From Prevotella sp. (GTDB lineage: Bacteria > Bacteroidota > Bacteroidia > Bacteroidales > Bacteroidaceae), in contig JAFZIL010000048.1 of the NCBI GenBank assembly GCA_017554385.1, positions 1-64,000 on the forward strand: a DNA stretch of 64,000 nucleotides, in the 5' to 3' direction. The translations under genes were made by a program, and so were the position numbers. Of the stretch, positions 8,346 to 62,405 are shown in pieces. Numbering within the stretch: the first letter of the stretch is position 1; each line of letters starts with the position of its first letter. Below the pieces are notes generated by a model that was not told the DNA's origin, searched no databases, and saw only the letters and a program-made list of their open reading frames with translations.

Positions 8346-8407
8346 CAAAGGTATGACTGTTCTACGAAAAACTCTTTATCTTATGTGCCATTGTGTTTTG
8401 TTTTCGT
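8346..8407 (-). promoter_or_regulatory. Promoter with PUL operator, 1252-aa gene
   Basis: The -7 box TACCTTTG is at 8346-8353. Upstream on the minus strand, ACAT (8383-8386), 6 bp and AAG (8374-8376) end 20 bp before the box. A weaker copy, ACGA-N6-AAC, lies 21 bp further up, to 8407. There is no -33 TTTG. The arrangement is identical at 12882, 33843 and 62398. Confidence 0.75.
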
Positions 8408-8450
8408 CAAAACGTTTTCTCAAACGGGTTTTATGCGTACAAATTGAAAA

Positions 8451-8507
8451 GCACCTGGTGCCACGCGGGCGCCAGGTGCCTGATAGTTGGGCGTAAACGT
8501 TACGCCC
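8451..8507 (-). terminator. Two-hairpin terminator of the 1436-aa gene
   Basis: The first hairpin is GGGCGTAA (8489-8496) with TTACGCCC (8500-8507). The second is GCACCTGG (8451-8458) with CCAGGTGC (8472-8479), which on the minus strand is followed by TTTTC. Both lie just past the stop codon at 8524. Confidence 0.75.
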
Positions 8508-8523
8508 TAAAGTAGGAGGGGGA

Positions 8524-11500
8524 TTACTTCACAAACACCTTCTTGCCATTAATGATGTAGAGACCCTTCTGAGCCTTCATCACCTTCTGACCATTCAGGT
8601 TGTAGATACCCTCGACTGCATCGGTCTTGTTGACAATGGTCTCAATACCGGTGAGCTCACCTGAGAGGCATGCAAGACGGAAGTCGGAGAACGACATCCA
8701 GTTGTGAACCTCGCTGGTAACACCCTGTACACCAATGGTTACAACAGAAGGCTCGTCGGTAGTCACATTGAAGAGCACCCAAGCATCGTTCCAACCACGG
8801 TTGAAGTCACCACCAGCAGAACCGATAGTCTTCATATCCTTCGTTTCTTCGCCAGCCTTCAGTGTCATGGTCACAGCAGCCGAAGCACGACCCTTGACGG
8901 TGAGCAGATACTGACCCTTAGGCAGTGTAACATCCTGAGTAAGGGCGATGTCCCAAGAGCTGTCACCCCACTTGTTGCTGTCGAAGTACTTGTGAGCTGA
9001 ATTGCCCTCGCCATCGGTCCAAGGCTCATTGCTGAGGATCTGGATACCATTCTCAACGCTGACAGTCCATCCGTTGATACCATCCTCGGCCTTCGGGTTC
9101 ACGATCTTGTCGGAAACATCACCGGCACCCTCGACACCCTCAGCCTTAGCGTTCGACTCGATGTAGGCACGATAAGCCTTCACCAGAGCCTCAGTCTTAG
9201 CAGTAGCGTCGGCAGCGTTGGTAGCAGCACTGTTATTCAAAGCGTCCTCAACGACACCCTGCTTCTCTGCGCTGGCGTATGGCCAAGCTTCAGCATCGAT
9301 GGTGATGTTGGCCTGAGCCTCAGCCAGGCCGTCGTAAGCAGCCTTGGCATCCTTGAAGTTGTTGGTAGCCTCGTTCAGAGCCTTGATGGCAGCCTCGAGG
9401 GCGGCAGCATCGGTCTCGTCGACATTGCCATACTGCTGGATAGCTGCATCGAGTGCGCTCTTCTCATCGCCAGTCACATTTGCATAGTCTGCATTATTCT
9501 GAGCATCCTTGGCAGCAGCCAGAGCCTCCTCGTAGAGTTGCTTGTAGGCATTAGGATCGGTGATCGGGCCGTAGTAGGTCAGCTGGGCATTGTCGAAGAC
9601 AGTCCAGTCAGCGTTAGAGTTCTCGGTACGCTTGATACCAATCTTCAGCGTTCCACCGATGACATTCACCTTACCAGTGGTGTTGCCAGTGTACTCGCCG
9701 TTGGCGATAGCATCAAGAGCGGCACCAAAGTTTGCTGCGCTTGTCTCGTTGACGAAAGCAGCCTCGGTCTCGTTAGCATAGATCTTAGTGGTTCCGTTGG
9801 TACCATAACCAGCAATGCTGAACTCATAGATACCGTCGGGCACATTGGTCAAAGTCTGGTTGAAGTCGAACGTGTTGTTCCAGAACTCCACACCATAGGT
9901 AGCGCGGTCAGCATTAGGTCTACCAATGTTGACGTTACCACCGGCATGGGTTTCAGTCCAAGCGCTATTACGCAGGTCGTTGCGGTTGAACTTAGGAGCC
10001 TTAACGAGATAGGTAGCATCGACGGGAGCCTCCTCGGTGGCATTTCCCATCAAGATAAGCAGTGCATCCATGCGCAGACCCTCGAGGGTAGCGGCAGGAA
10101 CGAACTGCCACTGGGCAGCGGCAGCAGTACCGTCGGCAGCAAGCGTCACCACATCATTCTCGCCAGCGGTGAGATAATTCTCGCCGTTGCTGATGGTCAA
10201 CACATCGTCGGCCACCTTCTCAATCGTCCAACCATAGGCAGCACCATCGCACCATTCTCCATTGAGGAAGTGATTATTGCCACCATTGCTCACCTGAGAA
10301 TCAAGCGTATACTTGCCATCGACCAGAGCCACACCGAAGTCCAGACCTTCCTCGTTGACAGCGGCATGGGTACCCCAGTTAGCACCAGCAGCAAGATACT
10401 TGTGCGTAGCTACATTATATATATAATAGGTACCATCGGCCACTGCGGGCTTGAAGGGAGCCTCGTACTTCACGAGCTTGTTGCCTGCATTGAACTCATA
10501 GGTCTCACCATACTTGGTCATTGTACCGGTAACGATGACGGCAGCACCAACCTCCACGTCGTCGATAGAAGCGAAGTCGGCACCGTCGATGCCCTTACCC
10601 TTGTAGCACTCGAACTGAGCGCTCTCAGTTGTACCGTCGTCAGAGATCCAATAGGTGATGAAACCATCCTGGAACTTGTCGACCTTAGAAACGATACCCT
10701 TTACGAACACCACGTCGGTCAGAGCCACACCTGCGTCAATCAGATTGATAGCCTCTGCCACGGTGTAAGCAGTCTCCTCAGTGTTAGCGATGGTTGCCGG
10801 AGTATAGGTTGTAGTAGCGTCGGTAGCGTCAGCCAAAGTGACGACAACCTTCTTCAACTGGGTATTACCAGCAACAGCCAGCACAACGTTGGTCGAATTG
10901 CCTTCCCATACGCCCTCAGCAGCGGCATCGCCATTGATGGTATTGCCAGCATTCCACTTACCGTTTTCGTAGACCACCTTCACGATAGCCTTGCCTTCGG
11001 GAGCAACGAGCGTCATGGTGCCGCCATACATACGCATCTTCGGAGAAGAGCCCCAGTAACGGTTAGCTGTAGAAGCATTGCTCGGAGTGATGGTCATGGT
11101 GACGCCACCCTCGACGATAATCTCGTCCTCAGTAATATCACCATCATGGCTGGTGTTAGAAGAAGCAGCGTGGGTAGAGGCATCGAAGTCGAAGGTGACA
11201 ACCTCCTCGGCCACGGCACCCTGAACCAGTTCAATGCTGGTCACCTCAATGTTCTGGTAGCGTACATAGACGAACTCGTCGTAGAGCTTAGCCTTCATAG
11301 CCTCGTCGATAACGAACTCGTAAGGCTTTTCGTCGTTCTTGATGCCAGAAACCTCGTCGATGGTCTGTCCGTTCTTGTCGAGCAGGGCAATCTGACCGTC
11401 GGCAACAGTGCGCAGCGGGCCACGAGATGCGTCGGGCATGGTGAAGTTGACACGGATGATGTCACCCACCTGTGCGAAATCATTGAAGTAGGCAGCGTCG

Positions 11501-12834
11501 AGCTTGATGTTCTTGTAGTCACCTGCAGTCTCCACAGTACCTGTAGTAGCATCCCAAATCACGCCATAAGCAGGAGTAATCACAGGAGCAGCAGCCTCCT
11601 TAAAGAGATACAGACCAGTCACAGTGACATTAGCCCAGTTTGCACCCTTGATAGCATTCAGGTTGGCAATGCCCTTGTCGGCAAGCATCTGTGCCAGGTC
11701 AACAGTAACAATATTGTTCTCGTTGGTGAAATACTTGTCTTCCCAGCCGCCCTTCGGGAACTCAATCATGTGCGATTCAGCCTCTGTGGCACTATAGCCG
11801 CCATTATCGATATCGCGATTCATCATGATACGAGGAGTTCCTTCAGCATAAGCAACATACAGTTTGCTATACTCAGCCAAGTTGGCAAAGTTCAAATAGC
11901 TTACGTTACCGTCACCATAAGGCAGACCAGAGGGAACAAACAACTCATAGGAACATCCTGTAGCCGAACCTGTAGTAGGAGCAGTTGCGCTGTCCCAATG
12001 CATGAACATGGCAGCTGTCAAATCGGTGAAGCCATCCTTCAGTGCTAAAGCAGCAATAGCATCGTTAATAGCTGTTGTTGCAGCAGTCAGACTGGCCTCT
12101 GTGGCATCGGCAGCAGCGAGAGCAGCCTCAGAAGTAGTAATCGTACTCGTTAATGCGGCGAAAGAGGCATCCGTGTAAGCGAAAGAATTCACCATCTTAG
12201 CCTTAGCAATAGCGTCGCTCAGGTCTTCCTTGAACGAAGCGAGCGGGTCGGCGCTTACATACTCCTTCAGGGTATAGAAGCTGAACCATGTGGCCTCTTC
12301 GTACTTGGCGGGACCATTGTCCTTCAGATAAAGACCAGTGCCTTTGTTCTTCAGGGCAAACTTGCCGTCATTGGACTCAATCTCCCAAACAGCGAGATTC
12401 AAACCGTCCTGACCATTTTGTCCATTCAGACCCATGATAAAGCTGCAACCACCTGTAGCAGGTTGTGAATTCAGGCAACCACCACCCCAGATGGAGTAAT
12501 CACTACCATCAGCCTTACACGACTGAAGATAGTAACAACCGCTGACATCACCACTTTGGCCTTGGGTTTGGGCAGCAACCAGACGGAAGGTGAGAGCAGT
12601 GTTGGTCTCGACGAATGCCGTAGCATACACGTCATAGCCAAGGTTTTGGTTAGTTGTACCAAAGAAAGCCTTTGCGTCTGTTTCATTCACGATAGCAAAC
12701 TTCTGGCCATCTAACGCTGCCATAGTAGCGAGCTTCTGGTCAAGCTCATACGTCTTTACAGCAGCATTTGCTACGCCTGCTACACATAGCAGCAATAGCG
12801 TGAGAATAGATTTGGTTAATCTTTTCATAAGCAT
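8524..12834 (-). CDS. Giant secreted multi-module protein (1436 aa)
   Basis: A companion of the 1252-aa protein. Signal peptide 1-25. A beta-trefoil-like N-terminal region (~30-195) precedes a helical segment (~200-265). Module 1 is shared with the 1252-aa protein (~290-410; GLPYGDGN, PRIMMNRDID, LNAIKGANWANVTV). Further on are a beta-sandwich (~540-670), an OB-fold-like domain (~690-790; FVKGIVSKVDKFQDGFITY), a second ricin-like region (~793-920; YYIYNVATHKYLAAG), a beta-sandwich (~925-1100), FIVAR-like helices (~1100-1240) and a beta-sandwich (~1240-1390). The end (GIYNLNGQKVMKAQKGLYII) is the common Prevotella C-terminal motif. No enzyme domain is seen. It carries the shared PUL operator. 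Start: ATG at 12834, or the next ATG two codons on (MLMKR). Role inferred as glycan capture. Confidence 0.85.
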   Translation of the reverse strand: MLMKRLTKSILTLLLLCVAGVANAAVKTYELDQKLATMAALDGQKFAIVNETDAKAFFGTTNQNLGYDVYATAFVETNTALTFRLVAAQTQGQSGDVSGCYYLQSCKADGSDYSIWGGGCLNSQPATGGCSFIMGLNGQNGQDGLNLAVWEIESNDGKFALKNKGTGLYLKDNGPAKYEEATWFSFYTLKEYVSADPLASFKEDLSDAIAKAKMVNSFAYTDASFAALTSTITTSEAALAAADATEASLTAATTAINDAIAALALKDGFTDLTAAMFMHWDSATAPTTGSATGCSYELFVPSGLPYGDGNVSYLNFANLAEYSKLYVAYAEGTPRIMMNRDIDNGGYSATEAESHMIEFPKGGWEDKYFTNENNIVTVDLAQMLADKGIANLNAIKGANWANVTVTGLYLFKEAAAPVITPAYGVIWDATTGTVETAGDYKNIKLDAAYFNDFAQVGDIIRVNFTMPDASRGPLRTVADGQIALLDKNGQTIDEVSGIKNDEKPYEFVIDEAMKAKLYDEFVYVRYQNIEVTSIELVQGAVAEEVVTFDFDASTHAASSNTSHDGDITEDEIIVEGGVTMTITPSNASTANRYWGSSPKMRMYGGTMTLVAPEGKAIVKVVYENGKWNAGNTINGDAAAEGVWEGNSTNVVLAVAGNTQLKKVVVTLADATDATTTYTPATIANTEETAYTVAEAINLIDAGVALTDVVFVKGIVSKVDKFQDGFITYWISDDGTTESAQFECYKGKGIDGADFASIDDVEVGAAVIVTGTMTKYGETYEFNAGNKLVKYEAPFKPAVADGTYYIYNVATHKYLAAGANWGTHAAVNEEGLDFGVALVDGKYTLDSQVSNGGNNHFLNGEWCDGAAYGWTIEKVADDVLTISNGENYLTAGENDVVTLAADGTAAAAQWQFVPAATLEGLRMDALLILMGNATEEAPVDATYLVKAPKFNRNDLRNSAWTETHAGGNVNIGRPNADRATYGVEFWNNTFDFNQTLTNVPDGIYEFSIAGYGTNGTTKIYANETEAAFVNETSAANFGAALDAIANGEYTGNTTGKVNVIGGTLKIGIKRTENSNADWTVFDNAQLTYYGPITDPNAYKQLYEEALAAAKDAQNNADYANVTGDEKSALDAAIQQYGNVDETDAAALEAAIKALNEATNNFKDAKAAYDGLAEAQANITIDAEAWPYASAEKQGVVEDALNNSAATNAADATAKTEALVKAYRAYIESNAKAEGVEGAGDVSDKIVNPKAEDGINGWTVSVENGIQILSNEPWTDGEGNSAHKYFDSNKWGDSSWDIALTQDVTLPKGQYLLTVKGRASAAVTMTLKAGEETKDMKTIGSAGGDFNRGWNDAWVLFNVTTDEPSVVTIGVQGVTSEVHNWMSFSDFRLACLSGELTGIETIVNKTDAVEGIYNLNGQKVMKAQKGLYIINGKKVFVK

Positions 12835-12881: not shown

Positions 12882-12943
12882 CAAAGATACTATACACGCG
12901 CGAGAAAGACTTTTCAAAATGTCTCGTTACGTTTCCTATTTGT
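12882..12943 (-). promoter_or_regulatory. Promoter with PUL operator, 1436-aa gene
   Basis: The -7 box TATCTTTG is at 12882-12889. On the minus strand ACAT (12919-12922), 6 bp and AAG (12910-12912) end exactly 20 bp upstream. A second element, ACAA-N6-AAC, is 21 bp further up (to 12943). A TTTTG lies upstream, but at 25 bp it is too far for a normal -33. Confidence 0.75.
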
Positions 12944-13120: not shown

Positions 13121-16100
13121 CTACTGCTCTGCATATTCGGACGGAGCCACGCCGAAATGTTTGCGGAAGATGGTAGAGAAGTGAGCAAGGTTAGAGAAGC
13201 CTACGGTATATGCCACCTGGGTGACGTTGATCTTCTGTTCCTTGAGCAGGCGGGCAGCCTGTTCAAGGCGGATGTTACGGATAAATTCGCTGGTCGAGAT
13301 ACCGGTCAGCTCCTTCATCTTGCGGTGGAGCTGTGCACGGCTGATGCCTACCTCCTGCGTGAGCATCTCGACGTTGAAGTCGCTGTCGCTGAGATTCTTG
13401 TTGATAGCCTTCATGATGCGCTCCATGAGCTGCTCGTCATTGCCTTTCACCTCGGGCTGTTCCACCTTGTCGGCTTGCTGCTGGGCACCGGTGAACTTAC
13501 CTTTCAGACGCTGGCGTCCCTGAATCAGGTTGTCGATAGTGAGGTGTAGCTCTTCCATGTCGAAAGGCTTGGCGAGGAAAGCGTCGGCACCACGCTCGAG
13601 ACCTTCAAGGCGGTTGCCCACATCGGCTTTCGAGGTAAGCATGATGACGGGGATGTGGGAGATGTTCATGTTGGTCTTGATCATGCGGAGCATGGTGAAT
13701 CCGTCCATCTCGGGCATCATCACGTCGCTGATGACGAGGTCGTAGCCATCGCTGGTGAGCAGTTCCTTCAGACCCTCCTTACCATTGGAGCAGAGTCCAA
13801 ACTTATAGTAGTGACTCAGCTCGGACTGAATGTAGCGGGCTATCTCAACATCGTCGTCGACGATAAGCACACGATACTTCTGCGAGCTATGAGAATGTTG
13901 CACGACAGGTGCACCCTGATCGGACAAGACACCTTGGACAACGGGGGTTTCGTCGATTTCCTCAGGAAGCAGATGGCTATTGCCTAAGGGCAGGGTAACG
14001 GTAAACACAGCACCACGCTGTCCGTCTGGGCGGTTCTGGGCGGTGATGGTTCCATGATGCATGTCGACAATCATCTTGCAGAGGTTCAGCCCGATTCCAG
14101 TTCCGTCGATGTGCATGCGACGCGAGTTGTTGCCTTGGTAGAAGCGGTCGAAGATATGTTTCAGACTGTCACTATCGAGTCCGATGCCGCTGTCGATGAC
14201 CTGCAACTGCATGGCATCGTCGGTATGGGTGAGGTTAATGGCAATAGTACCGCCGTCGTAGATATACTTGAAAGCGTTGGAGAGGAGGTTGGTTATCACC
14301 TTGTCGAACTGGGAATGGTCGACCCATGCCTCGATACTGTCGGCATCATGGTTGAAAGTGAAGTCGATGTTGCGGTCACGGGCGTTGAACTCGAACATCT
14401 TGTAGATGCCCTGTGTGAAGGCGACCATCTCGGTGAGCTGACAGTGGAGCTGGAGCTGCTGCTTGTCAATCTTACGCACGTCAAGTATCTGGTTGACGAG
14501 GTTAAGGATGCGCTTGGCGTTATGATCGATAGTGTCGACGGCTGCATTCTTTTCCAACTTCTTCAAGGCAGCGAGGATGAGCGTCAGCGGTGAACGGATG
14601 TCGTGGGTGGCATTGATGAGGAACTTCATCTTCTCTTCGTTCAGTTGCTGATTGGCATGGCGACGGTAGGTGCGCAACACATAGAATGCCAAGGCACCGA
14701 GAAGAGCGAAGTAGATGAAATAGGCGAGAAGCGAACGGTACCACGGAGCACGGATGGTTACTACAATAACCTTTGAGGGAGTGTACTCGCCAGAAACCTG
14801 GGCGCGCACCTCGATACGATAGGTGCCCGGCTGCATGTGACCAAGGGTAAACTCGTTGATGCCGGCGGGATTGGAAATCCACTGTCCGTCATTCACGCGA
14901 TATTCGTAGGCCACGTTCATCGGGTTGTCGAAGTTCATCTGGGAGAAGGCCAAAGTGACGGTGTGGTCAAGATAGCTCAGAGTGAAATAGTCGGACTCAT
15001 TAACGGGCTTCTCAGTAACACATACTCCATTGAGCACAATGCCCTTGGTGACTGTCTGACCACTTGCGAAGAAAGCCGTAAGCTGTACAGGGTCGAGCGA
15101 TGAATGGGCCTCCTTAATATCCTGAGGCGAGAAAACAGTGAGACCGTCGTTGTGGCCGAAGAAGATGCGGTCGGTATCGGTATGCATACCCACACCGTAG
15201 ATGTACTCCTTCTGCGTAAGGCCGTTGCCATTGATATGGCCAATGAACGACTGGCTCTTCAGCGAGTACTGCCAGATGCCATTGGACGTGGAGCACCAGA
15301 GGTCACCGTCGTTTGACTGTACGATATAACTGATAACCTTGTTTGCCAGTTGTTCACTACCCGGGAAACGACCGACCTGACGCGTACGGCGGTCGTAGAG
15401 ATAGAGCCCCTGCTCGGTACCTATGACGATGCTACCAGATAGTTGTTGTCCATCGGCCAGATGGCCATCGCGCAGTTCACAGACATCGAAACAGACAACA
15501 CCGTCGAGCAGTGAGTTCCAACCCATGGAACGGAAACTGTCGTCACGGGGCGAGAAGCACGACACACCCGACGAGGTGGCCATCCAGATGTAGCCCTGAC
15601 GGTCGCTGGCCATGCCCATGACCCAGTTGTTGCATAGATAGCCACGCACGCTGTCACGCTGGTTCATATCGTAGTTGCGCAGCTGGCCTGTAGAGGGATT
15701 GTATACGCAGAAGCCACGCGAAAAGGTCGAAATGTAGATGTTTCCCTCGGCATCGGAGGTCATGTCGTTGAAGCGGTCGCAGTCGAATGTCACACGAAGT
15801 TCGGAACGTCCAGTGACTGGATCATAGCTAAAGAGACCGTCGTCAGTACCCACCCAATAGCGGTGCTGACGGTCGCGGAAAATGAACTCAGCTGCGTTGG
15901 GCGCCGACGGACGGCTTACAACATGGCCATTGGCATTAAAACCGTAAACGCCCACGCCCTGAACGGTACACCAGACGATGCCGCCATCGCCCTCACAGAT
16001 GGAGGATACATTTGAGCCCAAACGCAACCCTTGGGCTGCAAAGCTCCAACTGCTGAACTGCATGGGACGCTGGGGCACCACGAGCAGTCCCTTGTGATGG

Positions 16101-17023
16101 CAGCCTAACCAGAGATTGCCGCTACGGTCGAAGAAGACTGCACTGATTTTAGCCGTATGAAGGTCGAGCTCAAAAATATCGATGTCGACATATTCCAGAC
16201 GCCGGGGATTGGTGTTGACAATGCGATAGACACCCTTTCCACGCGTACCTATATAGATAAAACCACTTTCGGCACCCCCGACGCGGGTGAACAGGACATC
16301 CTTGCCATCAACGGCACTCATATCGATATCAGCAATCGAGGCCTTGCCATTGCGCCAAGACATGACGCCATGGCTACAGACCACAAGTATCTCGTCAGCC
16401 AGTTCAATAAAGCCAACTGGCGTGCCCACCTGAGACGAGAAGGTCTCAACCTTGTCACCTTTACGCATGCTGAACGATGGTTCGAAGCCGCCCTTCCACA
16501 AGCGTCCATGCGAATCTTCAAACAAACGGCTGAAATAATTATTGGTTCCGGCCAAGGAATATAGAGAAAGACGGCCTTTGTCATCAAGGACAAAAGCTCC
16601 ATAGCCGGCAGTACCCAAAAGAATAGTACCGTCACTACGCTCTATAATAGTGGAGACTCGAGGATGGATGCCATCGGGAAAAGGATAGTGGACAAACGAC
16701 TCGGTGCCCATGTCGAAGCGGTCGAGGCCATGGTTGGTTCCTACCCAGAGCCGGCCCTTGCTGTCGCAAAGCAGCGATACCACGACATTGATTGCAAGCG
16801 ACGTAGTGTCGGCATCGTCATGAAGGAACGTCTGGTAATGATACCCATCGAAGCGGTTAAGTCCATAGTCAGTTGCAATCCATATACTGCCCTGGCGATC
16901 CTGACAAAGATCAGAAATAAGACCGCTGGAGAATCTGTCTGAAGGGAAAAGATGTCCGTTCTGCGCGTAGCATAAGCCATGCAACATGAGACAGAAGGAA
17001 AAAAATATTAGTAGTTTTTTCAT
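13121..17023 (-). CDS. Hybrid two-component system regulator (HTCS), xylan PUL
   Basis: A one-protein sensor and regulator expected to bind a xylan-derived oligosaccharide in the periplasm and activate the PUL. Signal peptide 1-20, then about 14 regulator-propeller repeats (motifs such as GSIWIATDYGLNRF and GRLWVGTNHGLDRF), a Y_Y_Y domain (~690-755) and one membrane helix (~768-790). The cytoplasmic part has the H-box NATHDIRSPLTL (~806), an ATPase domain (DSGIGLDSDSLKHIFDRF, GTGIGLNLCK), a receiver (~1047-1165, acceptor Asp in DLVISDVMMPEMDG) and an AraC-type HTH (~1195-1300). All key residues are present. 1300 aa is typical. It has a separate promoter without the PUL operator, consistent with low constitutive expression. 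Similar in type to the Prevotella XynR regulator; orthology is not shown. Confidence 0.95.
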   Translation of the reverse strand: MKKLLIFFSFCLMLHGLCYAQNGHLFPSDRFSSGLISDLCQDRQGSIWIATDYGLNRFDGYHYQTFLHDDADTTSLAINVVVSLLCDSKGRLWVGTNHGLDRFDMGTESFVHYPFPDGIHPRVSTIIERSDGTILLGTAGYGAFVLDDKGRLSLYSLAGTNNYFSRLFEDSHGRLWKGGFEPSFSMRKGDKVETFSSQVGTPVGFIELADEILVVCSHGVMSWRNGKASIADIDMSAVDGKDVLFTRVGGAESGFIYIGTRGKGVYRIVNTNPRRLEYVDIDIFELDLHTAKISAVFFDRSGNLWLGCHHKGLLVVPQRPMQFSSWSFAAQGLRLGSNVSSICEGDGGIVWCTVQGVGVYGFNANGHVVSRPSAPNAAEFIFRDRQHRYWVGTDDGLFSYDPVTGRSELRVTFDCDRFNDMTSDAEGNIYISTFSRGFCVYNPSTGQLRNYDMNQRDSVRGYLCNNWVMGMASDRQGYIWMATSSGVSCFSPRDDSFRSMGWNSLLDGVVCFDVCELRDGHLADGQQLSGSIVIGTEQGLYLYDRRTRQVGRFPGSEQLANKVISYIVQSNDGDLWCSTSNGIWQYSLKSQSFIGHINGNGLTQKEYIYGVGMHTDTDRIFFGHNDGLTVFSPQDIKEAHSSLDPVQLTAFFASGQTVTKGIVLNGVCVTEKPVNESDYFTLSYLDHTVTLAFSQMNFDNPMNVAYEYRVNDGQWISNPAGINEFTLGHMQPGTYRIEVRAQVSGEYTPSKVIVVTIRAPWYRSLLAYFIYFALLGALAFYVLRTYRRHANQQLNEEKMKFLINATHDIRSPLTLILAALKKLEKNAAVDTIDHNAKRILNLVNQILDVRKIDKQQLQLHCQLTEMVAFTQGIYKMFEFNARDRNIDFTFNHDADSIEAWVDHSQFDKVITNLLSNAFKYIYDGGTIAINLTHTDDAMQLQVIDSGIGLDSDSLKHIFDRFYQGNNSRRMHIDGTGIGLNLCKMIVDMHHGTITAQNRPDGQRGAVFTVTLPLGNSHLLPEEIDETPVVQGVLSDQGAPVVQHSHSSQKYRVLIVDDDVEIARYIQSELSHYYKFGLCSNGKEGLKELLTSDGYDLVISDVMMPEMDGFTMLRMIKTNMNISHIPVIMLTSKADVGNRLEGLERGADAFLAKPFDMEELHLTIDNLIQGRQRLKGKFTGAQQQADKVEQPEVKGNDEQLMERIMKAINKNLSDSDFNVEMLTQEVGISRAQLHRKMKELTGISTSEFIRNIRLEQAARLLKEQKINVTQVAYTVGFSNLAHFSTIFRKHFGVAPSEYAEQ

Positions 17024-17055
17024 TATGGTAAAACCGGTTTTCAGATTAGATGCTG

Positions 17056-17063: not shown

Positions 17064-17135
17064 CAACTTATTTGTCAAATATAGTTCACAATTAACGTTT
17101 CTTATACTTTTCTTTTTGTCTCATGGCGCACAAAA

Positions 17136-17176
17136 GAAAAAGCGGCAGCCGATATTTCGCATACAGGCTTGCCGCT
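17136..17176 (-). terminator. Terminator upstream of the HTCS promoter
   Basis: On the minus strand AGCGGCAAGCC pairs with GGCTGCCGCT (one bulged base) around a 15-base loop and runs into TTTTTCTTTT. It isolates the HTCS gene from transcription coming from upstream. Confidence 0.75.
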
Positions 17177-17433
17177 GGGCATTAGTTTTACCATAACTAA
17201 TTACTCTCTGAAAAATCAACTACTAACTACACAAGTTATGAAAACATAACTAACTAATCAAATTACTTGGTTGGAAAGGCTTTCAAAGCCTAAACTAGTT
17301 CACTAACTATTCACTAACTATTTCACTAAAACTAACTTTCTCATCAATTTCTTATTGACAATGCAAAATTACGCATTTTTCCCATAACTGGCTATCTCAC
17401 ATGTTTCGGTTACTTTCATTTTCGTATTAATTC
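17177..17433 (-). ncRNA. Possible small transcript between two terminators
   Basis: The AT-rich stretch between the SusD terminator (17434-17469) and the terminator at 17136-17176 has its own TAnnTTTG box on the minus strand (TAATTTTG, 17364-17371). It contains repeated GTTAGTGAA-type units: TCACTAACTAT twice at 11-bp spacing near 17300 on the plus strand. Small stems are AGTTATG/CATAACT (17234-17251) and AGGCTT/AAGCCT (17277-17291). A ~200-base non-coding RNA is possible. No convincing ORF was found; a 30-codon frame runs into the downstream terminator. Confidence 0.3.
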
Positions 17434-17469
17434 AAAAAAAACCGCCGTCTGCGAGGGCAAACAGCGGTT
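17434..17469 (-). terminator. Rho-independent terminator of the PUL operon
   Basis: A 12-bp stem (two G-T pairs) with loop CCTC, followed on the minus strand by eight T. It is 24 bases after the SusD stop codon at 17493 and marks the end of the FAS1-SusCD operon. Confidence 0.9.
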
Positions 17470-17492: not shown

Positions 17493-19178
17493 TCACTTCA
17501 AGGGAAGATACCAGTTGTTAGTATCCATGAGCAGTGTGCGAAGCTGGTCATCGGCCTGTCCGTTACGACGGCTGATGGGATCGGCCAAATAGGCAGGATC
17601 GCCACGACGCAGGGCCACGCGCATGAGATCATAGAATCGATAGCCCTCAAAGGCACCCTCGAGTGCCATCTCGTTGACGATCATATCTTCGACGAGCGGA
17701 ATCTGGTAGTCGATGGTGTCCTGGCGTGTGGCTAACTGCGACTGGGGCTGCGGCAGCACATAATAGTTGTTGCACTGGGAATCACCACTGCCAAGAGAGT
17801 GGATACCGATGGTGTTCTCACGGGTGAACGCGGTCTTGTCGAACGAAATGAGCTCTCCGGCCTTCACCTGCTCAAGACTATCGACATAAGCCTGGATGTT
17901 CTCTGAACAGAGGCCATACTTCAGCACAACCATAGCCGACTGAGGTAGTCCGGCACGGTTAAGAGCCTCGGCATAGCGCAGATAGACCATGTTCTTGCGG
18001 TAAGTGGCTATGCGGTCGCTCCACAGTTTGTTAATGCTCTGATGATAAGAGGAATACTCAGAGTAGGCATCCTGACCACCACGCGACGAGAGCCTGTAGT
18101 TGGAATAGAGGCGCAGGTCGCCTACAAGGATGTCGTCGCTGAAGCCGCTACGGGGCACATAGACGGTGTCGGTCGCGGTTTCGGTCTTGTACTCCTTGCA
18201 GTATATCTGCTCGGCAGATATGCGACGCATACCCGGTGACGGGGCGAGCTGATAGTAGTAGTTGTTCTCACGGGTGGAGTTGAAAACGTTGTTCAAGTCG
18301 CTTACTGTGCCATCGAAGATGCGCTCTTCCATGGGAATGATGCTCAGGTACTCTTCGGTGCTGGTGACGTAATAGCTGTCCTGCGGGCGCTGGAACTCAG
18401 TAACGCTGTTCCACTGTATGCGGTTTCCACTGCGCATGACGACAGGAATGTCCTTGTCGTTCAGGTAGCTGTTGTACCAGCGTGCAGCTTCTTCATAGCG
18501 TCCGCTCCAAAGACAGAGGTCGCCGAGGAGTACGCGCATGGGGATGAAGAACATGTCAGAGTTCCACGAGCCGATAGTACCGAAATGAGGCAGCTCGACA
18601 AGGGCGTAAGGTGTGAGGTCGTTGATGAAGTAGTTGCAAATCTGCTGAATGTCGGAATACTGCTGACTGCGGGCATCCTCGGCCTCGCGTTCAGTCATCA
18701 CAGGCGTGGTAACCAAGGGCACACGGCCATAGTTCTTAGCCAACTCTAAGTAAGCCCAGGCACGGAAGCCCTTCACCGCAGCATACTCATACTTGAAAAT
18801 TTGGCGTCCACGACGTTGCAAAGCCGTATCGACATGTGCTAAAAAGTAGTTGCAATTGTTGATCACAGCATAGTAGTCACTCACCTGATTGTACTTGTTG
18901 GGCTGCGAGAAGTCGAAAGCAGCCAGACGCTTCAGGTCGGACGAGGCGACCTCGGTGGGAAGCACCAAGTCGCTACGTGTCTCACCAAGCAGTACAACAC
19001 GATCGGCAATGATCTGCATGCGATTGATTATGCCTAACACGCTATAGACCGAGTCGGTAGGATGGTTGAGCGTGTTGTCCTCTTCGAACTCAACAAGCTC
19101 GGAAGAAGTCTCGAGCATGTCACTGCAGGAAGTGAAGAGTGAAGAGTGAAGAATGCTGCGCACAGAAGCCAGCCACAT
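17493..19178 (-). CDS. SusD/RagB family lipoprotein, N-terminus out of frame with MITK start
   Basis: An outer-surface glycan-binding lipoprotein expected to cap the SusC encoded just upstream (19237-22464). The mature part is typical SusD: TSCSDMLETSSELV at the N-terminus, TPR-like helices (FRAWAYLELAKNYGRVPLV, RVLLGDLCLWSGRYEEAARWY) and a final Trp-containing NNWYLPLK. The lipobox Cys follows LFTS. The open frame begins at ATG 19178 (MWLASVRSIL), a poor signal peptide. The start used by the five preceding genes of this operon exists here at 19201 (ATGATTACCAAG, giving MITKINNKCGWLLCAAFFTL), but it is in another frame. The frames part at a TTCACTC heptad run (19131-19154). One more 7-bp unit would join them. 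It may be a phase-OFF allele, a natural short start, or a sequence error. Confidence 0.85.
   Translation of the reverse strand: MWLASVRSILHSSLFTSCSDMLETSSELVEFEEDNTLNHPTDSVYSVLGIINRMQIIADRVVLLGETRSDLVLPTEVASSDLKRLAAFDFSQPNKYNQVSDYYAVINNCNYFLAHVDTALQRRGRQIFKYEYAAVKGFRAWAYLELAKNYGRVPLVTTPVMTEREAEDARSQQYSDIQQICNYFINDLTPYALVELPHFGTIGSWNSDMFFIPMRVLLGDLCLWSGRYEEAARWYNSYLNDKDIPVVMRSGNRIQWNSVTEFQRPQDSYYVTSTEEYLSIIPMEERIFDGTVSDLNNVFNSTRENNYYYQLAPSPGMRRISAEQIYCKEYKTETATDTVYVPRSGFSDDILVGDLRLYSNYRLSSRGGQDAYSEYSSYHQSINKLWSDRIATYRKNMVYLRYAEALNRAGLPQSAMVVLKYGLCSENIQAYVDSLEQVKAGELISFDKTAFTRENTIGIHSLGSGDSQCNNYYVLPQPQSQLATRQDTIDYQIPLVEDMIVNEMALEGAFEGYRFYDLMRVALRRGDPAYLADPISRRNGQADDQLRTLLMDTNNWYLPLK
19131..19154. 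repeat. Heptad repeat at the SusD signal-peptide junction
   Basis: On the coding (minus) strand, TTCACTC occurs twice and is followed by TTCACTT. The run sits exactly where the MITK frame (from 19201) and the SusD frame diverge. Seven is 1 modulo 3, so gain of one unit (or loss of two) would switch the frame. Confidence 0.8.
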
Positions 19179-19201
19179 TTGTTATTTATCTTGGTAATCA
19201 T

Positions 19202-19229
19202 AATTTTCAATTTTCAATTATCAATTTCG
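19202..19229. repeat. Heptad repeat upstream of the SusD MITK start
   Basis: Plus-strand units AATTTTC, AATTTTC, AATTATC, AATTTCG directly abut the ATG at 19201 (minus strand). They fill the gap between the SusC stop codon and the SusD start. Confidence 0.8.
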
Positions 19230-19236
19230 ATTTCGA

Positions 19237-22200
19237 TTACAGGTTGATGTTCACACCCAAAGAGAAACTTCTGCCGGCAGAGAGCAAACCGCGGTCGATA
19301 CCCTGAGAAAGGATGCTGGAACCAAGAGCACAATCGGGATTGCTACCTAAGTAACGGGTCACAGTGAAGAGGTTCTGGGCGTTGCCCCAAAGGGTGATAC
19401 CCTGCAGATAAGTGCTACGAATAGGCAGGTGCCAGGAGAGGGTAACACTGGAGAGACGCAGGTAGCTGCCGTCCTCAATCCAACGGTCGCTGAAGCGCGA
19501 GTTGCCCATCGGGTCGCCATAGGTGGCACGAGGAATCTCGGTCTGCTGTCCCTCAGTAGTCCAACGGTACTGCATGGCCGTGGTCTGGTTAAGGAACAGG
19601 CTGCCGCCCTCAATGAGCGAACGCTGGTAATTATAGACATCATTGCCCAAAGAGTAGTTCATCACGGCCTGCAAAGAGACGTTCTTGTAGGTGAGCGTAG
19701 TGTAGATATTACCATAGATGTCGGGATTAGGATCGCCGATGATGGTACGATCGGACTCATCGATGAGCTTATTGCCGTCAAGATCGACAAAGCGCATGTC
19801 ACCGGCCTCGAAGTACTGTCGATCGCCATTCTGCTTCAGGATGTAATAGCCGTCGGCCTGAGCTTGAGCGGTAGTGGTATAGACGCCGTCGGTCTTGTAA
19901 CCATAGAACACGCCCACGGGCTGTCCCACCTCGGTGAGTACAGTTCCACTATAGATAGAGGTCTCGATGGACTTGTCATTGTTGGGCAGGGCAGTCACCT
20001 TATTCTTATAGTGGCCTGCCGATGCACCGAGTTCCCAGCTGAAGTTCCTCAGAGCCAGTAACTTGGCACCCACATTGACATCGAAACCAGCATTCTCGAG
20101 CTTGCCGTTGTTGGTCCAGTTCTGTTGTAAACCACTGGTCCAAGCCAACTGGCTCAATGAAAGCAGATTCGAAGTCCAGCTCTTGAAGAAGTTCAGACCG
20201 ACATGGATACGATTGTTGAAAAAGTTTCCAGAGAGACCGGCGGTCAGACGATTCGTTGTCTCCCACTGCAGGTCGGTGTTACCGATATTGCCGATAATCT
20301 TGCTGCTGGCAGTCTCACCAAGCATACGCTTAGAAACGAAATATGAACGCGAAGCGGTATAGTCTACATCGTCGTTACCAGTCATGTCGAAGCCGACGCT
20401 CAAGCGCAGATAGTCAATGGCCTTCACACCACTGAGCCAACGCTCGTTGCTGAGCACCCAAGCACCCTCGACGCTGGGGAACAGTCCCCACGTTGCACCG
20501 AATAGGCGCATGCCGGAAGCATCGTCGCCAAAACGCGAAGAGGCATGAGCCGAGAGACCTGCATTGAGATAGAAGCGCTCGGCATAGTTGAAGTCGGCCA
20601 ATGCATACCAAGCAATTTCGCGAATCTGGTCATCGGCACCGCCGGTAGACTTGAAACGCAACGAACTGGACATGTTTGGCGTCTTATCATTGCCGGAGTT
20701 ATAGCCCAGTTGCGAGGTGAGCTTGTAACTGTTGCTCATATAGCGCACACCGGCCATCACCTTGAGATTGTAAATCTGAGGCTTGACATTGACGTTCCAC
20801 GTCAGACGGGTGTCACTCTGGATAATCGTCTGACTGGCTGCCTGACTCTGAGCCATGTTATCAAGTTGGGTTCCCTCGTCAAGTCCCTCAACATAGAAGG
20901 TGGGTACACCTTGAATAGGAAGGTAGTAGTTCTCGTTGGTATTGACCAAACCGAGCGTAAAATGCTCCTGAAGGGAAAGATGACGATTGAACTGATACTT
21001 CGGCGTGATGGCAAACATGACAAGACGGTTACCGAAAGAGTTACGGTTCTTGCCGTCGCCATGCTCAAGAATTGAGGTAGGATTGGCCAGACGACCACGT
21101 CCCTGGAACATACCCTCAAGGTAATCATCGGCCTCGGCAAGATAATGGGAAATGTTGCCATGCTTGTCATAAGCATACGGCGAGAGGAACGGAGCCTTGG
21201 TCAGTCCGAGGAAACCTGGCGAAGTAATCACCATACCAAGCGGATCGGCAGGTGCACCATCGTCGCGCAGAGAGCGGTCGACATCACTGTAGGATGCATC
21301 GAAGCGCACGTCAAGACGTCTGGTAATAGTGATATCGGAGTTCAAACGCATGTTAAAGCGCGAATAGTCATTCTCCTTCAGCGTGCTGTTGCCCAGCGAA
21401 TAGCCCACCGAGAGGTTGTAAGAAGCAGCGTCATCACCACCTTGCACGTTGATGCCGTAGTTCTGAGAGAAGGCATTCTTGTAGACCTCGTCAGCCCAGT
21501 CGGTCTCGTTGTGATACTGATTATAATAATAGTAATTGGGCTCACTGTTCAAGTACTTCATCTTACCCAGTGAATTGGGGTTCATCTTACCAGTAAGCAG
21601 CTCGGTGGTATAGAGACGATAATCATCGGCCTTCATCATCTCAGGCAGACGGGGAACGAGTTCATAGCGGCCATTGATGGTCACATCGATCTTAGTAGCC
21701 ATCGATTTGTTGCGCTTGGTCTTGATGACCAGCACACCTCCGGCACCCTTGGCACCATAAAGGGCGGTACCGTTTTTCAGAACCTCGACACTCTCAATGT
21801 CATTGACGTTGAGGTTGGCCAAAATGTTGTTGGTGTAACCGTCATGCAACATCTCACGGTTGTACTGCATATCCATGAGCACACCGTCAATGACGACTAA
21901 CGGCTGGGCGTTGCACCAGAGCGAGTTGATACCCTCAATGAGCATGGTGTTGCCCATACCAGGAATACCACCACGGCTCACCGTGCGAACATCGGCACCA
22001 AGTCGCTGGGCAACAAGGGGATCAATGCTCAGCTCGGAATTATTGTCAAAATGACCAGTCTCGCTGCTTACGGTAGCGACGGTCTGACGATTATAAGTCT
22101 CGCTGAAGGCATCGCTGTAGAGCTTGCCGTCAGCCTTGTCGCCATTGATGGCACGCTGCTGCAGGTTATAGCCATCAATGCGCATCACGACGGAACGGGT

Positions 22201-22464
22201 GTATGTGGGTACTTTCAACTCATAGTATCCCTGTTCGTCGGTCATTGAGGTCTGACGCTGGTTGCCATATGCCGAGACGATGACACCTGCCAAAGGCTGG
22301 CCGGTGGCGGCATCGACGACATGGCCCGTCACGGTCTTCAGATGGCTGGTGCTTTCCACCGGACGGTTGCTATTCACCTCCGTATTCTCCTGCGCTGTTG
22401 CTGCAACAAAGCCACAGCCAACTGCAAACGTCAGGAAGATATATCTTATATTCTTGGTAATCAT
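19237..22464 (-). CDS. SusC/RagA TonB-dependent outer-membrane transporter
   Basis: A 1075-aa oligosaccharide importer of the outer membrane, energised by TonB. Signal peptide MITKNIRYIFL...ATAQ (~25). A carboxypeptidase-like regulatory domain (~44-120; GHVVDAATGQPLAGV, DEQGYYELKV) precedes the plug (RLGADVRTVSRGGIPG, PLVVIDGVLMD, DIESVEVLKNGTALYGAKGA) and a 22-strand-type barrel that ends ...FSLGVNINL. Length is normal. It pairs with the SusD encoded immediately downstream. ATG at 22464 carries the shared initiation sequence TTATGATTACCAAG. The upstream FAS1 gene ends 19 bases before it, so both belong to one operon. Confidence 0.95.
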   Translation of the reverse strand: MITKNIRYIFLTFAVGCGFVAATAQENTEVNSNRPVESTSHLKTVTGHVVDAATGQPLAGVIVSAYGNQRQTSMTDEQGYYELKVPTYTRSVVMRIDGYNLQQRAINGDKADGKLYSDAFSETYNRQTVATVSSETGHFDNNSELSIDPLVAQRLGADVRTVSRGGIPGMGNTMLIEGINSLWCNAQPLVVIDGVLMDMQYNREMLHDGYTNNILANLNVNDIESVEVLKNGTALYGAKGAGGVLVIKTKRNKSMATKIDVTINGRYELVPRLPEMMKADDYRLYTTELLTGKMNPNSLGKMKYLNSEPNYYYYNQYHNETDWADEVYKNAFSQNYGINVQGGDDAASYNLSVGYSLGNSTLKENDYSRFNMRLNSDITITRRLDVRFDASYSDVDRSLRDDGAPADPLGMVITSPGFLGLTKAPFLSPYAYDKHGNISHYLAEADDYLEGMFQGRGRLANPTSILEHGDGKNRNSFGNRLVMFAITPKYQFNRHLSLQEHFTLGLVNTNENYYLPIQGVPTFYVEGLDEGTQLDNMAQSQAASQTIIQSDTRLTWNVNVKPQIYNLKVMAGVRYMSNSYKLTSQLGYNSGNDKTPNMSSSLRFKSTGGADDQIREIAWYALADFNYAERFYLNAGLSAHASSRFGDDASGMRLFGATWGLFPSVEGAWVLSNERWLSGVKAIDYLRLSVGFDMTGNDDVDYTASRSYFVSKRMLGETASSKIIGNIGNTDLQWETTNRLTAGLSGNFFNNRIHVGLNFFKSWTSNLLSLSQLAWTSGLQQNWTNNGKLENAGFDVNVGAKLLALRNFSWELGASAGHYKNKVTALPNNDKSIETSIYSGTVLTEVGQPVGVFYGYKTDGVYTTTAQAQADGYYILKQNGDRQYFEAGDMRFVDLDGNKLIDESDRTIIGDPNPDIYGNIYTTLTYKNVSLQAVMNYSLGNDVYNYQRSLIEGGSLFLNQTTAMQYRWTTEGQQTEIPRATYGDPMGNSRFSDRWIEDGSYLRLSSVTLSWHLPIRSTYLQGITLWGNAQNLFTVTRYLGSNPDCALGSSILSQGIDRGLLSAGRSFSLGVNINL

Positions 22465-22483
22465 AATGACGAATTATTTAATA

Positions 22484-24112
22484 TTAATTTCTTCTGGGAC
22501 GGAGATAGATGCAGTCGAGGTACATCTCGCGGGCAAAGCGCGACGTCTCGCGGGCCAGAATGCTGCACTGCAGCTTCACGCTGACCTTGATGTCCTGCTG
22601 GTCGTAATTGCAAGCGGGGAAATGGAAAGCCTCGGCCAGAACAATGGTATCGACCTTCTCGGGATTATTCTGGAACTGCTGATCACCGCAGTCGAAGGTC
22701 TTCTCTTTGCCTTTCTCATCGACATAGTTGACAAAAGCCTTGAATTTGCAGGGGCGCAAATCGGGGTTCGTGTTAGAAACGGCCTTGGGCAGAATAATGG
22801 CACAGATGTCGTAATCGCCCGAAAGAGTGTTGTTGACACGGAACGTAAGGCTCCAGTTTGACGTACCCGTACTGGGAAGAATCTGCAAATAGGCATTCTC
22901 CGAAATACTGTCAGCAATCTCACGACGAGTGTTGTATGAGCAATCATTCTCGGAGGTGATGAGCCATGTAGCCTCACCCTCTGACCACAACTCCTTCAGA
23001 TAAGTCTGAGCAGGGGTGAAAGGCCATGCATCAGTTTTGTAGAACATACCATTGCTACACGACACTGGCTCGGCACCGTAGAGAATACCACCAGGCGCAA
23101 AAGGCTCCTTAAACACATGGAAGACTGGTTTGCCACTCACATACCCCTTGCGCCAGCTGAGATAAGGCACTGAGACAAGCGAGTCCTGGGTGTTGTGCTG
23201 GTCGGTCATGTTGAAGATGGCATCCTCGAGGAGTGCACGAGTAGTCCAGTAATGCTGGATGGAGTCGCGCTTGAGCACCTTCTCGTCATAGACAAAGTAC
23301 TTGGTTGCCTCGTCCCATGCCTGCTGCCAGCCCTGTGCAGAAGGAGCAACAGCCCAATAGGCCGAGTCTTCGTTATTGATAAGACCGATGGCCTGGAGCA
23401 TGCGGTTATACTCGATGATCACCGAGTCAACATAAACGGGAACACCCTCGACAATACCGCTCGAAACAGATTCATCGGCACTGAAGTAATCCTGTTCGTA
23501 TTGACGCAGACTGAGACCTACGGGCTTCATGTCTGGCATGTCGCACAGCGCTTCATAAAGGTTGTACTTGTAGGGAAGGGGACGCTCGGTGATGTGGAGC
23601 ACACCATTTTTGGCATGTAGATTGCTTGCAGTAACCGCCACGTCCTCTATGCTGCCAGTCTTCGTGGTAACGTGCTTGGAATTGAGCATCAGCATTCGTT
23701 GCTCGACATCTTTAAGCGAACTGGCCTGTCGTGAAAGATGGTTGAACACGAAGAACTTCTCAACGACGGAATCGCCCTGATTGGTCTTAACAAGTTCAAG
23801 AAGAGAGTCACGGTTGAAGGTACCGTTGAGCGGAGCAACAACGGTAAACGACTGGCCTCCATCGAGCAACTGAGCATAGCTGACGGGAGTCTTCTTATGC
23901 ATGCGGAACACCTTGGTCTGCTCCAGCACCTGGCAGAAATCGCTCAGCTGAGGGTTCTGCTTCAGTTGCTGCCACAGTGTTTGGTCACTACCTGCGGCAG
24001 AGCCATTGCCCTCGTAATGGTCATCCCACTCGGAGCATGAGGTGAGGGATGCGACGATGCCGCAGCTTACCATACCTGCCAGGAGGAAATATTTTATGCT
24101 TTTGGTAATCAT
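22484..24112 (-). CDS. FAS1 (fasciclin) domain lipoprotein (542 aa)
   Basis: A surface or periplasm-facing lipoprotein. The signal peptide runs MITKSIKYFLLAG to the lipobox SLTSC (~26). Two FAS1-like regions are visible: ~40-180 (LSDFCQVLEQTKVF, QSFTVVAPLNGTFNRDSL, NGVLHITERPLPY) and ~185-360 (YNLYEALCDM, YWAVAPSAQGWQQAWDEAT). The rest (~400-542) looks like a beta-sandwich with FNFPACNYD-like text near the end (AFHFPACNYDQQDIKVSVKL). FAS1 domains usually mediate adhesion or binding; here it lies inside a glycan operon, so a role as accessory surface glycan-binding protein (SusE/F-like position) is inferred. Start ATG 24112 with the shared MITK initiation sequence. Confidence 0.8.
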   Translation of the reverse strand: MITKSIKYFLLAGMVSCGIVASLTSCSEWDDHYEGNGSAAGSDQTLWQQLKQNPQLSDFCQVLEQTKVFRMHKKTPVSYAQLLDGGQSFTVVAPLNGTFNRDSLLELVKTNQGDSVVEKFFVFNHLSRQASSLKDVEQRMLMLNSKHVTTKTGSIEDVAVTASNLHAKNGVLHITERPLPYKYNLYEALCDMPDMKPVGLSLRQYEQDYFSADESVSSGIVEGVPVYVDSVIIEYNRMLQAIGLINNEDSAYWAVAPSAQGWQQAWDEATKYFVYDEKVLKRDSIQHYWTTRALLEDAIFNMTDQHNTQDSLVSVPYLSWRKGYVSGKPVFHVFKEPFAPGGILYGAEPVSCSNGMFYKTDAWPFTPAQTYLKELWSEGEATWLITSENDCSYNTRREIADSISENAYLQILPSTGTSNWSLTFRVNNTLSGDYDICAIILPKAVSNTNPDLRPCKFKAFVNYVDEKGKEKTFDCGDQQFQNNPEKVDTIVLAEAFHFPACNYDQQDIKVSVKLQCSILARETSRFAREMYLDCIYLRPRRN

Positions 24113-27860: not shown

Positions 27861-27863
27861 CAA

Positions 27864-62060: not shown

Positions 62061-62100
62061 CAGGCAGTAACCCATCACGGTTGCTGCCTGTTTGTATTTT
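62061..62100 (+). terminator. Terminator of the HU gene
   Basis: CAGGCAGTAACC (62061-62072) pairs with GGTTGCTGCCTG (62079-62090), with one T-G pair, followed by TTTGTATTTT. Confidence 0.88.
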
Positions 62101-62164
62101 ACAGCGCTCGTTATAGACCAACGGCATGCAGCCCGACGCACGAATTAAACCTAAAGGGCCGGGT

Positions 62165-62274
62165 AACAGCCCCTGTTAGCCTATCAAACAGCCCCTGTCA
62201 GCCACCCTTACAGCCCCTGTTAGCATATCAAACAGCCCCTGTTAGCCAGTCTAAGAGCCCCTGTTAGCCAAGCA
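62165..62274. repeat. Five-unit 22-bp tandem array (AACAGCCCCTGTTAGC + 6 bp)
   Basis: Units start at 62165, 62187, 62209, 62231 and 62253. Each has a conserved 16-bp part, AACAGCCCCTGTTAGC (at most two changes), and a variable 6-bp part: CTATCA, CACCCT, ATATCA, CAGTCT, CAAGCA. The conserved part holds the dyad AACAG-CCC-CTGTT. The array lies between the HU terminator and the GH98 promoter, within a 398-bp gap. It is too short in period for CRISPR. Confidence 0.92.
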
Positions 62275-62343
62275 GGCGATATTTCAATAACTATCGCGCG
62301 GGCTTATCATGTCTCATCGGCAAGCGCCGCATTTTTCATCGAT

Positions 62344-62405
62344 ACATATTCCAAACAGTATGAAACATGCGCCAAAGGTGTTTCGGTACTTTTACCGTAA
62401 CTTTG
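62344..62405 (+). promoter_or_regulatory. Promoter with PUL operator, GH98 gene
   Basis: The -7 box TAACTTTG is at 62398-62405. ACAT (62365-62368), 6 bp and AAG (62375-62377) end exactly 20 bp upstream. The other half-site, ACAT-N6-AAC (62344-62356), is 21 bp further up. Same geometry as three promoters of the PUL 28-54 kb away. No -33 TTTG. Confidence 0.78.

Follow-up and report, generated by a model that had tools for sequence, protein, structure and literature searches.

The locus studied here raises the question of which regulator commands it and of what holds that regulator in check. It lies in a stretch of 64,000 nucleotides, hereafter the window (contig JAFZIL010000048.1, positions 1 to 64,000, of the Prevotella sp. 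assembly GCA_017554385.1), and comprises a xylan-type polysaccharide utilization locus (PUL) with SusCD pairs and FAS1 proteins, two giant proteins, a hybrid two-component system regulator (HTCS) and a distant gene of glycoside hydrolase (GH) family 98. HTCSs activate many plant-fibre loci in gut and rumen Bacteroidota, and limits on their output are little known. The reading we propose, with a probability of about 0.74, is that an HTCS operator drives the PUL, the two giants and probably GH98, together with a small RNA (sRNA) that would block translation of the HTCS in trans. The operators, their conservation, the RNA family and a unique, co-varying match between RNA seed and HTCS target are present in the sequences, and from these we infer HTCS binding, RNA production and repression by pairing. 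A dimer of the AraC-type domain of the HTCS would occupy a pair of direct half-sites spaced by 21 bp, of which the proximal replaces the -33 box, and RNA polymerase would be recruited at TAnnTTTG; the HTCS would in this manner switch on the FAS1-SusCD operon, both giant proteins, probably GH98, and the small RNA at 17133-17357. The hairpin loop of this RNA would in turn pair at the start codon of the HTCS mRNA and block translation, a negative feedback in which the active sensor makes both the PUL mRNAs and the RNA that limits the sensor. With the HTCS activating the RNA and the RNA repressing the HTCS, the PUL response would therefore be self-limiting. If true, this would be an RNA feedback loop within a polysaccharide utilization locus, and the predicted small RNA, for which the pairing bases can be named on both sides, is a concrete candidate for a control acting on the HTCS itself.

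The operator pattern, ACN8AAS-N8-ACATN6AAG-N20-TANNTTTG, has four exact matches in the window, at the 33843, 12882, 8346 and 62398 promoters, precisely the four for which a preliminary description of this DNA had claimed it. The geometry given there also holds at all four: the half-sites are spaced 21 bp apart, 20 bp separate AAG from TAnnTTTG and no TTTG stands at -33, where the AAG of the proximal half occupies the place of the box. AraC-type activators overlap -33. With up to two mismatches allowed the window yields five matches, against a mean of 0.01 over 100 shuffles. The fifth copy (17364-17425) had been overlooked, as had a third half-site at the 33843 promoter; it heads the predicted small RNA, and its one mismatch is ATAG for AAG, GATAG being the usual form in relatives. 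A position weight matrix (PWM) built from 41 RNA promoters, all of other genomes, ranks this fifth site first in the window (59.3), followed by those at 12882 (36.8), 8346 (28.7) and 62344 (17.3). The remaining promoters named as free of the operator, which were not inspected individually, indeed show no full form at up to two mismatches in the window scan. For the HTCS promoter (17056) the same statement is correct as regards the exact form, but a degenerate operator pair is present, with ACAAAAAGAAAAG at 17119 followed by ACG, 21-bp spacing and a gap of 22 to TAnnTTTG (17056-17119, minus strand). A half-site of this kind occurs in 13 of 41 loci, and operator-core sites lie ahead of the HTCS in genomes G059, G223, G250 and G149; the HTCS may thus act on its own promoter as well. 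In Bacteroides thetaiotaomicron, the 16 predicted HTCS motifs are described as direct repeats whose spacing averages 21 bp (Ravcheev et al. 2013, PMC3878776), in agreement with the earlier statement that AraC-type domains, through which HTCSs bind, favour direct repeats about two helical turns apart. As far as sequence can tell, the HTCS type of the operator is confirmed.

The genome was scanned as 3.06 Mb in 98 contigs (81% complete). Genome-wide, the only exact matches to the proximal-half pattern are the four window sites, while a relaxed scan allowing up to two mismatches, with the reversed pattern as control, returned 11 matches (five in the window) versus one for the control. Five of the six relaxed matches outside the window head xylan-type genes or gene pairs (table 1), the outcome that the preliminary description had looked for; the site at C28:35253 has a PWM score of 21.8. 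The sixth match, C32:47857, was discarded, lying inside a 341-aa coding frame. The 703-aa protein behind one of these sites (L302:15323-17431) has no Pfam or NCBIfam match and lies near GH10, GH97 and GH31 genes. The exact full pattern was found in 49 of 299 genus genomes, and the reversed control gave 0 in every genome listed. In 54 loci with the small RNA, the operator core outside the RNA promoter has 48 matches at gap 20 (four in the window) versus 0-4 at each other gap from 8 to 36. These 48 sites stand before homologs of the 1252-aa protein in 25 loci (window included) and before the HTCS in four, and 12 have no gene assignment. The comparison covers fetched stretches, most of which end short of the relatives' SusCD promoters; within them the operator is kept before corresponding genes (small RNA, 1252-aa homologs) in genomes with an HTCS ortholog. 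As a precise pattern, the operator could be used to predict xylan regulons across Prevotella genomes, of which many come from uncultured organisms.

The fifth operator lies in an intergenic region that runs from the terminator-like site after SusD (17469-17440) to the HTCS. The operator is followed there by TAATTTTG, by some 225 nt of sequence and, at 17063-17056, by TATCTTTG. The 225 nt end near 17133 with a GC hairpin and T-run, and their folding is better than that of shuffled sequences (z -2.1; 5 of 200 shuffles were as good). When 200 genus genomes were searched at the DNA level, conservation was seen in two blocks, one at the operator-promoter and the other at the 3' end of the RNA. A covariance model of the RNA family (R1), built on alignment A2 of 26 sequences with the window included and used at a cut-off of E up to 0.001, matches 59 of 398 genus genomes, the own genome among them. 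In A2, 97.4% of the cells are paired, and two-sided changes are seen in 7 of 19 pairs, every one of them within the terminator hairpin; cells with a two-sided change number 33, compared with 9.0 in shuffles of the RNA alignment. By sequence, then, the small RNA has its own operator-promoter and an intrinsic terminator with covariation, and at eight loci it is found without a separate promoter. Its aligned part shows length changes and its 5' repeats are rich in TAG and TAA. At gathering score no Rfam 15 family other than a tRNA occurs in the window, the inclusion of FopS in that release being unchecked. A reading of the fifth site as a mere second HTCS promoter was rejected because the conserved T-run hairpin and a separate TAnnTTTG lie before the HTCS. 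We consider it fairly probable that this is a conserved, Prevotella-type sRNA family, transcribed from the xylan HTCS operator, which shuts off HTCS translation in trans, with seed and target changing together.

The surroundings of the RNA family can be compared over the 52 strongest RNA matches outside the own genome; L026 and L027, which duplicate the genomes of G215 and G330, were dropped before counting. In 46 of the 52, an HTCS ortholog (55-71% identity) lies downstream of the RNA, within 540 nt in 42 and at 1.1-2.2 kb in four. Among the other six, three have little contig left (G104 about 120 bp, G097 about 230 bp, G382 1.4 kb), and in G138, G264 and G343 the ortholog is on another contig; G343, with a weak RNA match and no HTCS start found, was excluded from the unlinked cases. 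For the operator count, 54 loci were scanned (G000 and L025 added), 53 of them with upstream sequence (G066 left out), using a score that gives half a point for gap 20 and a threshold of 14. An operator reaching this score precedes the RNA in 43/53 loci, 42 at gap 20 and one at 21, as compared with 10/324 random locus stretches, among which true operators are possible, and 2/260 shuffled upstream sequences. In eight of the ten low-scoring loci (G382, G116, G138, G072, G171, G324, G097 and G343; respectively L210, L225, L224, L240, L238, L239, L242 and L245) the RNA model starts 61-126 nt past the stop of a SusD homolog and no operator intervenes; in G264 and in the window, both of which have an operator, that distance is 192 and 288 nt, respectively. 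These operator-less RNAs may derive by cleavage from the tail of the SusCD transcript and would therefore still be tied to the same induction. The two remaining low scorers are G187, narrowly below threshold (13.5), and G289, at a contig end.

The match between RNA and HTCS is exact in the window. The predicted target GTTTTACCATAA, complementary to the loop seed TTATGGTAAAAC, has just two exact occurrences in the genome: one is that at the HTCS start, and the other, reversed, lies in the RNA. The reversed-pattern control has none. Across genomes, 48 RNA-HTCS pairs were compared (L032 and L041, with no start found, were left out); before pairing was tested, the starts of G223 and G215 were shifted to an in-frame ATG further upstream, after TTACCAT had been seen by the upstream ATG of G223. 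This motif is present 8-16 nt before the start in 26 of the 48 HTCS leaders, counting G223 after its start was moved. None of the 7 leaders whose RNA has lost the loop seed carries it, versus 26 of the 41 with an intact seed (Fisher p=0.0023). It is also absent from all 11 HTCS homologs not tied to the RNA (10 in genomes where no RNA was found, plus L033), all of them more distant. Duplex energy averages -28.0 kcal/mol for cognate and -25.4 kcal/mol for swapped pairs, and none of 20,000 permutations was as good; after dereplication (n=43) the values are -28.05 and -25.42 (p=5e-5), and among leaders without TTACCAT (n=20) they are -27.43 and -23.59 (p=5e-5). Other stretches of the RNA are used in G335, which pairs over 17 nt, and in G286, over 15 nt. 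Within loci, the HTCS leader has a mean of -28.0 versus -20.7 for the leaders of other open reading frames (ORFs) and is the best of them in 29/47 loci. The two unlinked genomes retain the pairing. The RNA of G264 (99% complete) follows SusD on contig C17, where it has an operator of its own; the HTCS ortholog is on C14, and its leader TTAGTTTTTGCCATAAC still pairs with the RNA (8 of 300 shuffled leaders as good). G138 (70% complete) carries the RNA on C172 and the HTCS on C46, with GTTACCATAAC before its ATG; here 3 of 300 shuffled leaders are as good, or 7 of 300 with a longer RNA.

A number of observations weigh against an operator-driven RNA that silences the HTCS. With the PWM, the 33843 operator scores only -3.6 and the stretch just upstream of it 10.6; because a matrix trained on RNA promoters gives it that value, this operator rests on the exact pattern. 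Another HTCS of the same genome, on contig C62, is a possible second reader of the operator. As to the RNA, the 52 fetched matches consist of 28 new ones and 24 from the training set of the model, the seed hairpin has no two-sided change in A2, and a simple scan for terminators missed the one of the RNA itself. As to the pairing, at least one other ORF leader pairs as well as that of the HTCS in 18/47 loci (31/234 controls; in the window 1/23), pairing is poor in L025, G128, G149 and G250, and G313 forms a 13-bp helix across the ATG, yet two of its eight control leaders pair as well. Among the 23 leaders with TTACCAT the comparison of cognate with swapped pairs gives p=0.11, no clear advantage for the cognate ones, as would be expected if one seed were common to all. 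The longest gapless helix hardly discriminates (median 12 cognate, 11 swapped), and the duplex energies leave out folding within each RNA and come from related sequences.

Several other explanations can be set against the same data. The sites themselves might be chance matches in AT-rich promoters, the half-sites being short and loose and 10 of the 324 random stretches reaching the operator threshold; with a shuffle mean of 0.01, exact patterns in 49 of 299 genomes versus none reversed, and a sharp peak at gap 20 both in the sRNA loci and upstream of GH98 genes (see below), we find this scarcely credible. The position of the RNA, on the strand of the HTCS and upstream of it in 46/52 loci (42 within 540 nt), could point to a cis leader, with transcripts from the fifth promoter reading through into the HTCS and folding back on its start codon. 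This is quite unlikely in view of the conserved, covarying hairpin with a T-run that ends the RNA, of the HTCS's own TAnnTTTG after the RNA in the window and in 38 of 41 closely spaced loci, of the four loci in which 1.1-2.2 kb intervene, and of the two genomes (G264, G138) in which RNA and HTCS are on different contigs. The RNA might also act mainly on other PUL mRNAs, the pairing with the HTCS leader then being a sponge or even activating. Its several TTAGTTAGT-like repeats would suit such a role, 31 of 234 other leaders pair as well, and the FopS sRNAs are reported to act on susC mRNAs (PMC11697453); against it stand the exact 12-mer match unique to the HTCS (the genome search was confined to that 12-mer) and the covariation of the pairing with the HTCS leader, and we regard it as rather improbable. 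Repression of the HTCS in trans by an RNA from its own operator is the reading that we retain.

The identity of the HTCS that reads the operator bears in particular on GH98. The DNA-binding domain of the window HTCS (last 120 residues) is conserved at a median of 91% identity, minimum 73, over 46 loci (window and duplicates excluded). Elsewhere in the genome, the paralogous HTCS on C62 is 58% identical to it in this domain and five others are 24-38% identical, while a 698-aa frame on C33 gave no match. The window HTCS is thus the best candidate reader, and the operator likely belongs to it. GH98, whose nearest solved relatives are the GH98 chains 9h6f, 9h6h and 9h6g, is present in 78 of 249 genomes. 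Upstream of the 30 highest-scoring GH98 matches, the best operator-core scores average 6.03 at gap 20, and at none of the other gaps from 8 to 35 does this mean exceed 3.9. A score of at least 8 at gap 20 is reached in 18/30, including 11 of 20 genomes with the RNA and 7 of 10 without it. Since gap-20 sites precede GH98 across genomes, this gene appears to be widely under HTCS-type control. Among the ten RNA-less genomes an HTCS ortholog was detected only in G034 (68%), the best match of the others being at most 52% identical, and six of these nine, a set that includes incomplete genomes, still have an operator-like site before GH98. Short AGCCCCTGTTAGCC-type repeats lie at 62160-62280 in the window, directly upstream of the GH98 operator.

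The preliminary description had assigned the operator to the window HTCS and placed GH98 in its regulon. The HTCS-type operator has stood; as proof for this particular HTCS the GH98 site was rejected, given the C62 paralog and the sites that persist in genomes where no ortholog was found. A tentative alternative, which we take seriously while giving it less than even odds, is that the GH98 site and the distant GH10, GH43 and GH115 sites are read by the C62 paralog, the window HTCS controlling only its own PUL. The related DNA-binding domain of that paralog, its position adjoining the GH115 site and the sites in the six genomes just mentioned would all agree with this; the exact match of the GH98 site to the window class, and genome G384, in which GH98 lies near the HTCS ortholog and has the same kind of site, speak for the window HTCS. 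Membership of GH98 in the regulon of the latter is thus plausible. A xylan HTCS reaching beyond its own PUL has a likeness in PUL 43 of Bacteroides xylanisolvens, where one such regulator is reported to control that PUL and a distant cluster (Despres et al. 2016, PMC4855328); the portion of that report available to us describes no operator or RNA, whereas here GH98 is the distant candidate target. The GH98 protein BACOVA_03433 of Bacteroides ovatus is described as an endo-xylanase acting on corn xylan and lies in a xylan PUL (PMC4491172), whereas the GH98 gene of the window, whose activity is predicted, is about 28.4 kb from the SusCD promoter and has its own operator.

The components of the proposed circuit resemble known systems to different degrees. 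The B. thetaiotaomicron HTCS regulons (PMC3878776) are alike in their AraC-type HTCSs, direct repeats of about 21 bp and, as there outlined, some distant genes; they belong to another genus and other HTCSs, and the fixed 20-bp gap to TAnnTTTG was measured here. An sRNA gene in the HTCS regulon is a further difference, the term "sRNA" having 0 occurrences in the main text of that paper. FopS and GibS of B. thetaiotaomicron are sRNAs with a terminator that, according to PMC11697453, pair beside the start codon of PUL mRNAs, and the FopS sRNAs do so at the susC start codon and block translation in Bacteroides. FopS differs in having susC targets, canonical sigma promoters and 14 copies, whereas the RNA described here would be driven from an HTCS operator and have the HTCS itself as its target. 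The introduction of the RbpB paper presents as open whether and how Bacteroidales halt translation of existing PUL mRNAs once the stimulus fades, and the paper's own answer is given as FopS sRNAs acting on susC mRNAs. The feedback logic is already known, because OmrA and OmrB, activated by the EnvZ-OmpR system, repress the mRNA of the regulator's own ompR-envZ operon (PMC12692685, as summarized there). That system is enterobacterial and has two genes, while here sensor and DNA-binding domain form one protein; the RNAs themselves were not compared. The amount of the Roc HTCS of B. thetaiotaomicron is set through its mRNA leader, and an sRNA or RNA-binding protein was suspected (PMC10294740); in the account given there, control by the leader raises Roc, three candidate sRNAs failed and no factor was found. 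Among the papers listed in literature searches by title and abstract, with most subscription journals outside them, none concerns an HTCS-linked feedback sRNA.

The genes around these elements are in keeping with a xylan locus (table 1). Along the window, on the minus strand, Pfam matches and length give the order GH115, GH43, 1252-aa protein, 1436-aa protein, HTCS, SusD, SusC, two FAS1 proteins, SusD, SusC and a third FAS1 protein, and judging from GH115, GH43, GH98 and the distant GH10 genes the substrate of the PUL would be xylan. Among named contigs, the nearest relatives of the HTCS suggest a Prevotella-type bacterium.

Table 1. Position of the operators, the predicted small RNA, its proposed target and the surrounding genes in the window, with the relaxed operator matches on other contigs of the genome.
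Feature	Position	Strand	Remark
GH115 and GH43 genes	128..4407	-	Pfam
1252-aa protein, recurrent operator-bearing partner	4525..8283	-	CBM_4_9 below cut-off
HTCS-type operator (two half-sites) and TAnnTTTG, before 1252-aa protein	8346..8407	-	exact match; PWM rank 3
1436-aa protein	8524..12834	-	no family found
HTCS-type operator and TAnnTTTG, before 1436-aa protein	12882..12943	-	exact match; PWM rank 2
HTCS: Reg_prop sensor, Y_Y_Y, HisKA, HATPase, receiver and AraC-type helix-turn-helix in one protein	13121..17023	-	Pfam
Predicted target GTTTTACCATAA, ending on the A of the HTCS ATG	17023..17034	-	12-nt complementarity to loop seed
Predicted small RNA, about 225 nt: TTAGTTAGT-like repeats, seed hairpin, terminator hairpin with T-run	17133..17357	-	start inferred
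Loop seed TTATGGTAAAAC of small RNA	17185..17196	-	complement in genome only here and at HTCS start
Fifth operator and TAnnTTTG, heading predicted small RNA	17364..17425	-	one mismatch; PWM rank 1
Terminator-like site after SusD, between SusCD operon and small RNA	17440..17469	-	1 found; shuffles mean 0.7
Predicted operon, in transcription order: FAS1 protein, SusC, SusD, two FAS1 proteins, SusC, SusD	17493..33753	-	Pfam
HTCS-type operator and TAnnTTTG, before FAS1-SusCD operon	33843..33904	-	exact match; PWM -3.6
Extra half-sites upstream of 33843 operator	33905..33945	-	full at 33924 (20 bp up), near-match at 33945
HTCS-type operator and TAnnTTTG, before GH98	62344..62405	+	exact match; PWM rank 4
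GH98 gene, continuing to contig position 65610	62437..64000	+	Pfam GH98M, GH98C
Relaxed match before GH10	C25		PWM 25.8
Relaxed match before GH10	C28		
Relaxed match before 703-aa protein of no family, then GH43-CBM6	C28		
Relaxed match before MFS_2 sugar transporter, then GH43	C49		
Relaxed match before GH115, adjoining another HTCS	C62		

For the two giant proteins neither a family nor a solved relative was found at the thresholds used, and they may be new xylan-binding or xylan-cutting surface proteins. In the small RNA, the top of the terminator hairpin is nearly constant (GTATG-GAATA with a GNRA-like loop; A2 columns 51-64), beyond what a terminator needs, and may bind a protein. Genome G034 (L317) has an operator and a diverged RNA-like stretch before its HTCS ortholog; because the model missed this stretch, the RNA family is probably wider than the model shows. 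Lastly, three FAS1 (fasciclin) proteins lie among the tandem SusCD pairs at 22484-33753; to our knowledge, FAS1 proteins within a xylan-type PUL are an unusual make-up.

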